From assembly GCF_003288905.1 (NCBI RefSeq), contig NZ_NHYL01000001.1, positions 372,001 through 436,000 of the forward strand: DNA of 64,000 bases, given 5' to 3'. This document shows, piece by piece, positions 28,765-63,570 of the stretch. Below the pieces are notes generated by a model. It searched no databases and was not told the origin of the DNA. It saw nothing but the letters and a program-made list of their open reading frames with translations. The stretch comes from Helicobacter sp. 11-8110 (lineage in GTDB: Bacteria; Campylobacterota; Campylobacteria; Campylobacterales; Helicobacteraceae). Position 1 is the first letter of the stretch; each line of letters begins with the position of its first letter. The translations under genes were made by a program, and so were the position numbers.

Positions 28765-29091
28765 ATGGCAGTCTCTCCAATTAGCAATGTAAATTTTATT
28801 AATCAAAACTCACAAGTTGGCTCAATTCAACAAGCAAATAATCAAGTTAAATTAGATTTTCAAGCTATGATTAGTCTCCAAGAAATGCAAGATAAAGAAA
28901 ATGAAATCCAAGAAGTGCGCCCAACTGAAGAAACCCTAAAAACCAATGAAGATAAAGAAGATAATGGTAAGGAAGATCAAGAAAAAGAGAATCAAGAAAC
29001 AACAAAAACACTAGAAACACAAGAAGATTCTCAAGATGAAATTCAAACTGATGAGAATGGATTGATTCAGCACTTAAATATTTCAATTTAA
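28765..29091 (+). CDS. Small acidic protein, function unknown
   Basis: The 108-residue protein is not recognised. It has a polar Asn/Gln-rich N-terminus (residues 1-35), a very acidic Glu/Asp/Lys low-complexity middle (about 45-95), and a short non-acidic end. It follows the NFACT gene by 10 bp with an AGGAG site, so it is probably translated and last in the operon. No signal peptide or membrane segment is seen; much of it is probably disordered. Confidence 0.55.
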   Translation: MAVSPISNVNFINQNSQVGSIQQANNQVKLDFQAMISLQEMQDKENEIQEVRPTEETLKTNEDKEDNGKEDQEKENQETTKTLETQEDSQDEIQTDENGLIQHLNISI

Positions 29092-29168: not shown

Positions 29169-29795
29169 ATGTTTAATTTACGCGCATTACCTTTTAATGA
29201 AATCCAAGGCTTTATTAGCAAAGAAACCTGTGAATTCCATTATGGAAAACACCACCAAACTTATATTAATAATCTTAACAATCTTATTAAAGGAACAGAA
29301 TTTGAATCGGCTTCTTTATTTGAAATTGTTACAAAAGCACAAGGCGGAATCTTTAACAACGCTGCACAAGTTTATAATCACGATTTTTATTGGGATTGCC
29401 TCTCACCCAAAGAAACTCCATTAAGTAGCGAATTGCAAGAAGCTATCAATGAAAGCTTTGAAAGTTTTGATAAATTCAAAGAAACTTTCTTGCAATCTGC
29501 CACTACACTTTTTGGTTCTGGTTGGTGTTGGGTTGTGTATAATCCAAACTCTAAAAAACTAGAAATTGTTCAAACAAGCAATGCACAAACTCCTGTTACA
29601 CAAGGCTTGATTCCTATTTTAGTGGTTGATGTTTGGGAACACGCTTATTATGTAGATTACAGAAATGCTAGACCTGCTTACTTAGAAAAATTCTTTAGCC
29701 ACATTCACTGGGATTTTGTTTCTAAATCATTAGAATGGGCAAAAAAAGAAGGATTAAACTCTGTAAATTTCTATATGAACTCTCTCCACGCTTAA
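29169..29795 (+). CDS. sodB: Superoxide dismutase, Fe type
   Basis: The 208-residue Fe/Mn SOD destroys superoxide in the cytoplasm. The metal ligands are visible as the His of EFHYGKHHQTY, the His of NHDFYWDC, and the Asp and His of DVWEHAYYVDYR. The AAQVYNHDFYW and GSGWCWVV segments fit the iron form of Helicobacter. Its own promoter probably lies in the AT-rich 77 bp upstream. The next gene downstream is a cation ATPase under an apparent Mn2+ riboswitch. Confidence 0.93.
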   Translation: MFNLRALPFNEIQGFISKETCEFHYGKHHQTYINNLNNLIKGTEFESASLFEIVTKAQGGIFNNAAQVYNHDFYWDCLSPKETPLSSELQEAINESFESFDKFKETFLQSATTLFGSGWCWVVYNPNSKKLEIVQTSNAQTPVTQGLIPILVVDVWEHAYYVDYRNARPAYLEKFFSHIHWDFVSKSLEWAKKEGLNSVNFYMNSLHA

Positions 29796-29832: not shown

Positions 29833-29894
29833 ACAATATTCTTTCATATTTTCTTTTGTTTTCTTAAATTTTTTTTTGCTATAATTTTGAAAAC

Positions 29895-30061
29895 ATGAGG
29901 GAGTAGTAAGCAAGTTTTTTACTTGTGGCAAACCAACATACTGATGATTCTCATCTGGTTTTGCCTTAAATTATGAGACTCATATATAACTTATATAGCT
30001 ATATATGATTCTTAAAACTTCCTAAAATTTAGCTTCATATATAGCCAAAAAGGAGCTAAAT
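29895..30061 (+). promoter_or_regulatory. yybP-ykoY-like (Mn2+) riboswitch with expression platform
   Basis: The leader of the P-type ATPase gene contains GAGGGAGTAG, then CCAACATACTG, then GGTTTTGCC and GAGACTC, in the order of the conserved blocks of yybP-ykoY manganese riboswitches. P1 is ATGAG (29895-29899) with CTCAT (29979-29983); GGCAAAcCA pairs with TGGTTTTGCC. Past the aptamer, GCTATATATGA (29998-30008) can pair with the nearby TCATATATA (29980-29988) or with TCATATATAGC (30035-30045). ATTTAGCT (30027-30034) pairs with AGCTAAAT (30054-30061), hiding the Shine-Dalgarno and start. Ligand-stabilised P1 would keep 29980-29988 busy and free the start: a translational ON switch. The identification is by eye. 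Confidence 0.75.
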
Positions 30062-32738
30062 GTTTCACAATATTCCACTACAAGAACTCTTTACCAAATT
30101 TCAAAGTGATCAAGAAAATGGATTAACTTCCACACAAGCCCTAGAAAACAAACAAAAATTTGGTGCAAATATCTTTGAAAAATCCCCTCCACCTACACTT
30201 ACAAAGCAACTCTTAGAAGCACTCAAAGAACCTATGGTTTTATTGCTTATTTTTGCTGCCCTTCTTGCTCTTGGAATTAATACCTATGAATATCTCTACC
30301 ACAATCAATCAAACTTTTTAGAATGTATTGGCATCTTTATTGCTATATTTATTTCTGTAGCTATTACGCTTATTATGGAGAATAAAAGCCAAAAAGCCTT
30401 TGAAACTCTCAATGCTATCACTCAAGGCAATACCATAAAAACTTTGCGTGATGGAGAAGTTAAGCTTATCCCGCAAGAAGAGATTGTCAATGGCGATATT
30501 TTACTTTTGGAAACTGGCAATAAGATTCCCTGCGATTGTCGCATTATACATTCTCAAAGTCTAATGTGCAACGAATCAAGCCTTACAGGTGAAAGTATGC
30601 CAAGCATCAAAAATCCTATTCTCTCTAATCACACTCCTAATAATACTTATGAAAATATGCTTTATAGCGGTTGCTTTATTACTCAAGGCAATGCAAAAGC
30701 TATTTGCGTAGCTGTTGGAAATCACACTGAATTTGGAAAAATAGCAAAAGCTCTTGATCAAACAATCCAAACCATAACACCCTTACAAGAAAAACTCCAA
30801 AAACTTAGTAGAAGAATCACAATTTTTGGAGCAAGTGCTGCATTTTTAGCCTTTCTCATACAGGTTGTCTTTTTTGTCCTAAGAGACACTATTAGTTTTG
30901 AAAACATTACACAAGCTTTTATTTCAAGCGTTGTTCTTATTGTTGCCTCTGTCCCTGAAGGTTTGCCTACCATTGTAGCCATATCATTAGCTCTTAATAT
31001 TATTAAAATGTCTAAACAAAATGCCCTCATTAAAAAACTTATTGCTTGTGAAACAATTGGCTGTGTTAATATTATTTGTAGTGATAAAACTGGAACACTT
31101 ACTCAAAATCAAATGAGTGTAGAACATTCCTTTATTCAAGATAGAATCTTTGAATTCCATTCTCACTCTCTACAAAATCTCCAAACAAGCCCCATTAAAG
31201 ATTCTGCTTTTTTTATGCTTCATAATGCCGCATTAAATTCCACTGCCGATATTAGTCAAAAAGGAGAAAAATACGATTTCATTGGCAATCCAACCGAATG
31301 CGCTCTACTTGTTTTTGGAGAGAAAATAGGATTCCACTATAAAGAAATACGCAAGAATTTTAAAATCTTACATTCCTTTCCTTTTTCTTCCCAAACAAAA
31401 AATATGACAAGCCTAGTAGAATTCAAAGGAAAAGTTCTTTGCCTAAGCAAAGGAAGTCCCGAAAAAATCCTAAGTCAATGCAAGATGATGCCTTGCCAAG
31501 ATACACTAAAGATTAACAAACAAATTCTTTACTTCCAAAATCTTGCCTATCGGGTTATTGCCTTTGCACACAAAGAAATTGCAGATGATGGGGATTTTAA
31601 AAATAGAGAATTGCTTGAATCTGAAATGATTTTTGATGGCTTTGTAGCGATTTCTGATCCATTACGTCCTGAAGTATATGAAGCTATTATGGACTGCAAA
31701 AAAGCAGGAATTGATGTTAAGATTCTAACAGGAGACAACCTATCTACTGCTAAAGCCATTGGAAATCAACTACATTTACTAGATCATAATTCTATTGCCA
31801 TTGAAGCTAGTGAACTAGAAAATTTAAACCAAAAAGAATTACTTCAAATTCTCCCAAAAATCAAAATCATTGCGCGATCCACACCGGATACCAAGATGCA
31901 AATTGTTAATATTCTAAAATCTCAAGGTAATGTTGTAGCGTTAAGCGGAGATGGAATTAACGATGCTCCAGCCCTTAAAAATGCCGATGTTGGAATCGCT
32001 ATGGGAATTAGCGGGACAGAAGTCTCCAAAGCAGCTAGTGATATTATCTTACTTAATGATAGTTTTGCAACTATTGTTAAAGCTATTGAATGGGGGCGAG
32101 GCATCTATCAAAATTTCCAACGCTTCATTCAATTCCAACTCACCGTCAATCTTTCCTCTGTAATAATTGTTTTGTTTGCAGTTATCGCAGGATTAACAGC
32201 ACCCTTTAGTGCTTTGCAACTTTTATGGGTAAATCTCATTATGGATGGACCACCTGCGCTAACCTTAGGATTAGAGCCTATTTCAAAAAACCTTTTAGCC
32301 CAAAAACCTATTAAGCGAAATGCCAATATTATAACTAAAGATATGCTAATTCTTATTATAATTAATGGAGTATTCATTGCTTTTGTATGCCTCTTGCAAT
32401 ATTTTACAAATTTCTTAGGCGCAACTCCTAAAGAAAAAAGCTCTGTTCTTTTTACGCTTTTTGTTATTTTTCAACTCTTTAACGCATTTAACGCAAGAGA
32501 ACTGCATAATCAAAGTATTTTTAAAAACCTTACCAACAATCGCCTTATGCTTGGAGTTTTTATTCTTACTTTTGCTTTGCAAGTCTTAATTGTAGAATTT
32601 GGAGGAGAAGCTTTCAAGACAACACCATTGGATTTGATAATGTGGATAAAAATATTATTTGTAGGTTTTAGTGTTATTATTGTGGGAGAAATTGTTCGCT
32701 TTTTACTCAAAATTTCTAGGAAAAATAATCTTTCCTAG
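30060..32738 (+). CDS. P2-type cation-transporting ATPase, probable Mn2+ (or Ca2+) exporter
   Basis: The 892-residue pump has the P2A-type order of domains. The N-terminal cation-ATPase region comes first, then the actuator with TGES (about 176-179) and the helix-4 motif VPEGL. Phosphorylation site DKTGT follows (Asp342), then TGDN, the hinge DGINDAP and six C-terminal helices. Helix 6 carries NLIMDGPPAL with Asn and Asp ligands, as in Ca2+/Mn2+ pumps. The yybP-ykoY-like leader argues for manganese export, as proposed for YoaB of Lactococcus. Metal choice is inference. Confidence 0.85.
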   Translation: MFHNIPLQELFTKFQSDQENGLTSTQALENKQKFGANIFEKSPPPTLTKQLLEALKEPMVLLLIFAALLALGINTYEYLYHNQSNFLECIGIFIAIFISVAITLIMENKSQKAFETLNAITQGNTIKTLRDGEVKLIPQEEIVNGDILLLETGNKIPCDCRIIHSQSLMCNESSLTGESMPSIKNPILSNHTPNNTYENMLYSGCFITQGNAKAICVAVGNHTEFGKIAKALDQTIQTITPLQEKLQKLSRRITIFGASAAFLAFLIQVVFFVLRDTISFENITQAFISSVVLIVASVPEGLPTIVAISLALNIIKMSKQNALIKKLIACETIGCVNIICSDKTGTLTQNQMSVEHSFIQDRIFEFHSHSLQNLQTSPIKDSAFFMLHNAALNSTADISQKGEKYDFIGNPTECALLVFGEKIGFHYKEIRKNFKILHSFPFSSQTKNMTSLVEFKGKVLCLSKGSPEKILSQCKMMPCQDTLKINKQILYFQNLAYRVIAFAHKEIADDGDFKNRELLESEMIFDGFVAISDPLRPEVYEAIMDCKKAGIDVKILTGDNLSTAKAIGNQLHLLDHNSIAIEASELENLNQKELLQILPKIKIIARSTPDTKMQIVNILKSQGNVVALSGDGINDAPALKNADVGIAMGISGTEVSKAASDIILLNDSFATIVKAIEWGRGIYQNFQRFIQFQLTVNLSSVIIVLFAVIAGLTAPFSALQLLWVNLIMDGPPALTLGLEPISKNLLAQKPIKRNANIITKDMLILIIINGVFIAFVCLLQYFTNFLGATPKEKSSVLFTLFVIFQLFNAFNARELHNQSIFKNLTNNRLMLGVFILTFALQVLIVEFGGEAFKTTPLDLIMWIKILFVGFSVIIVGEIVRFLLKISRKNNLS

Positions 32739-63375: not shown

Positions 63376-63570
63376 ACCCAAGTGGGCGCTTATAATTGTG
63401 TAAGCCCTAAAAAATTTAAGGATTCTAGCCATAAGTTCTTTATTAGGCGGCAGATTCTCGTCTCAACTTAAGAGACTAATAGCGAAAACACCATCACACA
63501 AAAGAATCTATACAACTAGCAATATTTGATGTGTTGGACTCCAAAAAAATAAATCGCGTTCCACTCAGGC
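63376..63570 (-). ncRNA. ssrS: 6S RNA candidate upstream of purD
   Basis: On the minus strand a perfect TATAAT (63577-63582) is followed 6 bp later by GCCTGAGTGG-aa-CGC. About 190 nt downstream stands GCGCCCACTTGGG, which can pair with it to close a long rod; a T-rich stretch (GGGTTTTTGCTTTTT) follows. Between them are further partly complementary segments on either side of an internal region, as in 6S RNA, which binds the sigma70 RNA polymerase holoenzyme. I recall 6S RNA lying upstream of purD in Helicobacter and Campylobacter; that was not checked. Size (about 195 nt), promoter and ends fit. Confidence 0.68.

Follow-up and report, generated by a model that had tools for sequence, protein, structure and literature searches.

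The window, the 64,000-nt stretch of DNA that was analysed, comes from a Helicobacter-like genome whose nearest named relatives are H. burdigaliensis and H. valdiviensis. Its + strand carries a gene for a P2-type cation-transporting P-type ATPase of 892 amino acids (30060..32738; TIGR01517), the putatively regulated gene, which is preceded by a structured leader, also on the + strand, with a manganese-type (yybP-ykoY) aptamer at 29895..29983. Directly upstream of the leader lies a gene for a Fe-type superoxide dismutase (29169-29795). There is also an acidic, Q/E-rich open frame of 108 amino acids (28765-29091) which has no Pfam match, and a purD RNA motif (RF01069, 60.1 bits) is found on the - strand at 63376-63511. 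In other species (loci L008 and L010) the genes upstream of the leader differ, so leader and pump travel together.

From a probable -10 element, TATAAT (29880..29885), transcription would begin at about 29892, directly 5′ of the first aptamer helix. A TANAAT box is present 12-17 nt upstream of the aptamer in the remaining leader-bearing species; a sigma-70 consensus scan of the leader region found no full promoter. Helix P1.1 and loop L1 together read ATG AGG GAG TAG (29895-29906), a three-codon frame just past the probable transcription start; it probably arises only because the L1 block is conserved.

The aptamer is closed by P1.1, formed by ATGAG (29895..29899) and CTCAT (29979..29983). It is followed by L1, the conserved metal-site loop of the class, composed of GGAGTA (29900..29905) and GAGA (29975-29978), and by P1.2, in which GTAA (29906..29909) pairs with 29971-29974, with three of four pairs covarying. 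The L1 strands between P1.1 and P1.2 are invariant in 11 genomes while both flanking helices covary, and the block is found likewise in E. coli mntP and alx. Next come the P2 hairpin GCAAG...CTTGT (29910..29926), all five pairs of which covary in the wider set of sequences, and a hairpin consisting of P3.1, L3 and P3.2 (29927..29965), both helices of which covary. L3, AACATACT (29935-29942), is the loop between P3.1 and P3.2 and holds a conserved adenosine; the block CAACATACT has the same letters here as in E. coli mntP and in the consensus of RF00080. Between P3 and P1.2 neither a P4 helix nor a four-way junction was found, the joining segment TTAAA (29966..29970; alignments A1 and A2) alone occupying the P4 site of the four-way class, and so the junction is a three-way one. 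P4 was not treated as a requirement of the class, since the pneumococcal mgtA switch, a member, is described as a three-way junction (PMC9495176); the form is thus not unique to Helicobacter.

Within the genus, 99.3% of cells are paired in a MAFFT alignment, and seven of 28 pairs show changes in both strands. When the set is widened to 11 sequences including two from the Bacillota, 20 of 26 aptamer pairs are changed on both sides and 98.6% of cells are paired, counts which lean towards the structure of model R1 because the wider alignment was fitted to it (R1 being the model built from the 11 aptamers of the genus, R2 the widened model). None of the shuffles of the wider alignment attained the observed values. 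The aptamer fold is shown by covariation. The fold of the 186-nt leader also lies 5.6 standard deviations below dinucleotide shuffles (z = -5.6).

Membership of the yybP-ykoY class was examined with Rfam, with R1 and R2 and with a descriptor. RF00080 gave no match to the leader at its gathering threshold or at E<=10, nor did it match the leader in related genomes. No other Rfam family matched the leader, with a relaxed threshold giving chance matches only. RF00080 does score about 8-12 bits at some places in the genus, but none of these is the leader and they were given no weight. In control searches, the same model (Rfam 15) missed the verified E. coli alx switch (L022:2377-2505) even at E<=10 and scored E. 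coli mntP at 44.9 bits with a cut-off of 45. As alx is missed and mntP falls below the cut-off, the failure to match does not exclude membership; the current RF00080 model does not span the full breadth of the class, and surveys relying on it miss class members, as is evident from the undetected alx. An initial, sequence-only reading of this DNA had named a covariance search without a significant score as a refutation. The Rfam search was indeed negative, but its model is blind to a verified member, and the controls show that the reading is not refuted by it.

A descriptor made from E. coli mntP alone (GGGGAGTAG, CAACATACT and GAGACC together with P1.1 pairing) scored 27 of 29 at the leader and 22 at the next-best place in the window, while 60 random sequences of 128 kb gave no score above 24, their best. 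With R2, a search of 9.5 kb of E. coli ranked the mntP leader first (E 0.065) and the alx leader second (E 0.32); these scores are weak, but the two highest-ranked places are the verified switches. An R2 match in genome G286 (22 bits, E 0.099) lies within an acetyl-CoA carboxylase-like coding sequence and was dismissed as chance.

R1 was run on eight plasmid loci that carry homologous ATPases. It matched two ATPase leaders, that of Vescimonas fastidiosa (L047) at 34.6 bits (E 3.6e-6) and that of Lactobacillus intestinalis (L049) at 34.4 bits (E 4.1e-6), the next match among the eight being at 13.3 bits. Both leaders possess GGGAGTAA, an L3 of the GTCA type and GAGACT, and downstream of these come terminator-like hairpins with T-runs. 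The L. intestinalis leader (L049:1324-1447) also matches the Rfam family RF02617, SSRC10 (Streptococcus sRNA 10), at E 6e-4. The SSRC10 consensus shows GGGAG, CGUCAAUACGG and GCGAGAC, and what Rfam lists here as an sRNA is probably the Mn2+ riboswitch of streptococcal mgtA. The sequence-only reading had assigned the leader to the yybP-ykoY type by its ordered conserved blocks; GGAGTAG, CAACATACT and GAGAC were all found in place, and the assignment is borne out by their identity with mntP, by the R1 and R2 matches and by covariation.

The expression platform is built on a repeat. Exchange strand copy 1, TCATATATA (29980..29988), is common to P1.1 and an anti-P1 hairpin, and both it and the middle switching strand GCTATATATGA (29998..30008) are invariant in 11 genomes. 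TCATATATA occurs a second time at 30035-30043, within exchange strand copy 2, TCATATATAGC (30035..30045), the anti-sequestor partner of the middle strand. Both copies are complementary to GCTATATATGA, just as the sequence-only reading had it, and the RNAalifold consensus also pairs copy 2 with the middle strand; one distance was miscounted in that reading, the second copy ending 19 bases and not 47 before the end of the stated interval. Between the middle strand and copy 2 sits the anti-Shine-Dalgarno, or sequestor, strand ATTTAGCT (30027..30034). Its complement, AGCTAAAT (30054-30061), includes part of the ATG at 30060, so that the proposed pairing over the start codon also holds, and the ribosome-binding site AAGGAG with its start codon ATG (30050..30062) lies under the sequestor helix.

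In the ligand-free fold all 11 species have the anti-P1 hairpin together with a helix over the ribosome site (the OFF state), and 29980-29988 pairs with 30000-30008 in every such fold. When P1.1 was enforced and the transcript ended just before the ribosome site, 29998-30008 paired downstream in every one of the 11 species, with 9.7 to 11 expected pairs. At full length with P1.1 enforced, the sequestor opened in seven of 11, and the full-length energy model gave no release in the other four (L009, L012, L013, L014), which by these folds would need folding during transcription for release. Folding during transcription is the usual order. Two mutually exclusive folds, one of them covering the ribosome site, were hence obtained computationally, in the kinetic version for 11 of 11 species. 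In a strand-swap test with five groups, the true sequestor pairing ranked 1 of 120, and it remained the most stable whichever representatives were chosen; the two strands of the sequestor helix coevolve. The exchange of the P1.1 strand and the sequestration of the ribosome site, both part of the sequence-only reading, are supported by the folds in 11 species, while its translational ON logic is supported in all 11 by the anti-sequestor on the cut transcript and in seven by release at full length.

As no intrinsic terminator was found on the + strand of the leader, control is most likely exerted on translation. Without ligand, 29980-29988 would leave P1.1 and pair with 29998-30008, whereupon a helix of 30027-30034 with 30054-30061 would mask both the ribosome site and the start codon. 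Binding of the metal is predicted to dock L1 on L3, with P1.1 then holding 29979-29983 and 29998-30008 being left to pair with 30035-30045. The sequestor strand would in this way be looped out before the ribosome site is made, allowing translation to start.

Of 121 genomes of the family, 13 carry the ATPase, and these belong to a single genus, with one of the 13 genes being partial, at a contig end and without an upstream region. The leader lies directly upstream of it in 11 of the 13 carriers (11 of the 19 genomes of the genus), and all 11 leaders precede the same P-type ATPase. In genome G075 (L007) the ATPase is kept while promoter, aptamer and platform are missing, and the gene found upstream in L008 ends just before the pump; this is a natural removal of the switch. 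An R1 search of 397 genomes from 68 genera of the phylum returned nothing beyond the known leaders, and a pattern search returned the same ten genomes with no match for the reversed pattern. The papers searched, with most subscription journals outside the search, held no Helicobacter report of such a switch. Within these collections and papers the switch is new to the Campylobacterota, and among the sampled Campylobacterota only one Helicobacter genus has it. Outside the genus, the ATPase most similar to the pump is encoded by an Alkaliphilus plasmid, with 44% identity as against at most 37% for other Campylobacterota, which suggests that the pump may have been acquired by an old lateral transfer from Clostridia or the like.

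The pump scores best as a Ca2+ pump, reaching 697 bits with TIGR01517 (PMCA-type Ca2+ ATPase; cut-off 507.05), and its solved relatives, including SPCA1 and Listeria LMCA1, are named Ca2+ ATPases. SPCA1-type pumps transport Mn2+ as well as Ca2+. MntP, a known Mn2+ exporter, exceeds the cut-off in four genomes of the genus, with the ATPase in 13 and neither in two, and the two are never found together. In a RecN tree the MntP genomes form one clade nested among the ATPase carriers, so that the exchange represents one event and a claim of exclusion significant by counts was rejected. The replacement nonetheless suggests a role in Mn2+ transport. No Mn2+ aptamer was found around mntP in that clade (L054, L060, L062, L063), the mntP genes of these Helicobacter relatives being without such a leader. 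By analogy with pumps of the kind known under such switches, as the sequence-only reading had also proposed, the ATPase is likely to be the Mn2+ export pump of these species.

Taken together, the locus is read as a divergent three-way-junction yybP-ykoY riboswitch that turns on translation of an ATPase exporting Mn2+, possibly also Ca2+, with a probability of roughly 0.8. The analysis shows the aptamer fold, the competing pairings, the coevolving sequestor strands and the conserved link to one gene, whereas the identity of the metal (Mn2+ and possibly Ca2+ as well), the ON direction and activity in the cell are inferred. The same riboswitch could instead have Ca2+, or Ca2+ and Mn2+ together, as its physiological signal and cargo, to which the pump's PMCA-type score and the names of its solved relatives point; against this stand the general capacity of SPCA1-type pumps to carry Mn2+ and the occurrence of MntP in the genus only where the ATPase is absent. 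The three-way mgtA switch is reported to have a higher affinity for Ca2+ than for Mn2+, although Mn2+ is reported there to be more prominent than Ca2+ in activating mgtA transcription (PMC9495176). The calcium alternative is on balance unlikely. Were the aptamer tuned to Ca2+, alone or with Mn2+, a Gram-negative genus would possess a calcium riboswitch acting on translation, and there is likewise only a small chance of this.

It is improbable, too, that control is transcriptional, with the ligand-free form exposing a Rho site or stopping RNA polymerase. E. coli mntP is reported to be controlled by Rho as well as by its riboswitch (PMC11647493), and terminator-type hairpins with T-runs are present in the related leaders of Vescimonas and L. 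intestinalis, but the Helicobacter leader has no intrinsic terminator on its + strand and possesses a coevolving helix over the ribosome site in 11 of 11 species. That the leader is an unrelated structured element of the genus and no metal riboswitch would agree with the want of a matching Rfam family, yet against it stand L1 and L3 blocks identical to those of mntP and model matches across phyla before homologous pumps, and it is considered highly improbable.

The preferred reading, a translational Mn2+ riboswitch, places such control in a Helicobacter genus, for which the papers and genomes searched gave no other case, and gives these species a likely pump for Mn2+ export. The controls show in addition that RF00080-based surveys underestimate the widespread yybP-ykoY class. 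The two-copy exchange platform is compact and easily tested.

Several known systems resemble this arrangement. Mn2+ riboswitches precede cation-translocating P-type ATPases in Lactococcus lactis (YoaB) and Clostridioides difficile (CD2503) (PMC11477304); these belong to another phylum and are likened to the Helicobacter leader by description. The V. fastidiosa and L. intestinalis leaders share the aptamer core and junction with it, and their ATPases are 33.6 and 33.8% identical to the Helicobacter pump, respectively; however, terminator-like hairpins follow their aptamers whereas the Helicobacter leader is without a terminator. E. coli mntP, described as translationally controlled (PMC11647493), shares the predicted mode of control and the GGAGTAG, CAACATACT and GAGAC blocks, but MntP is not an ATPase, and its leader has an extra hairpin (P4) before GAGACC and a different expression platform. 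The Streptococcus pneumoniae mgtA switch, a Mn2+-sensing yybP-ykoY riboswitch upstream of a Mn2+/Ca2+ efflux ATPase (PMC11434433, PMC9495176), resembles the Helicobacter leader in the efflux ATPase downstream, in the three-way junction described for it and in the ON control proposed here. It is described as activating transcription, whereas the Helicobacter leader has no terminator and covers its ribosome site.
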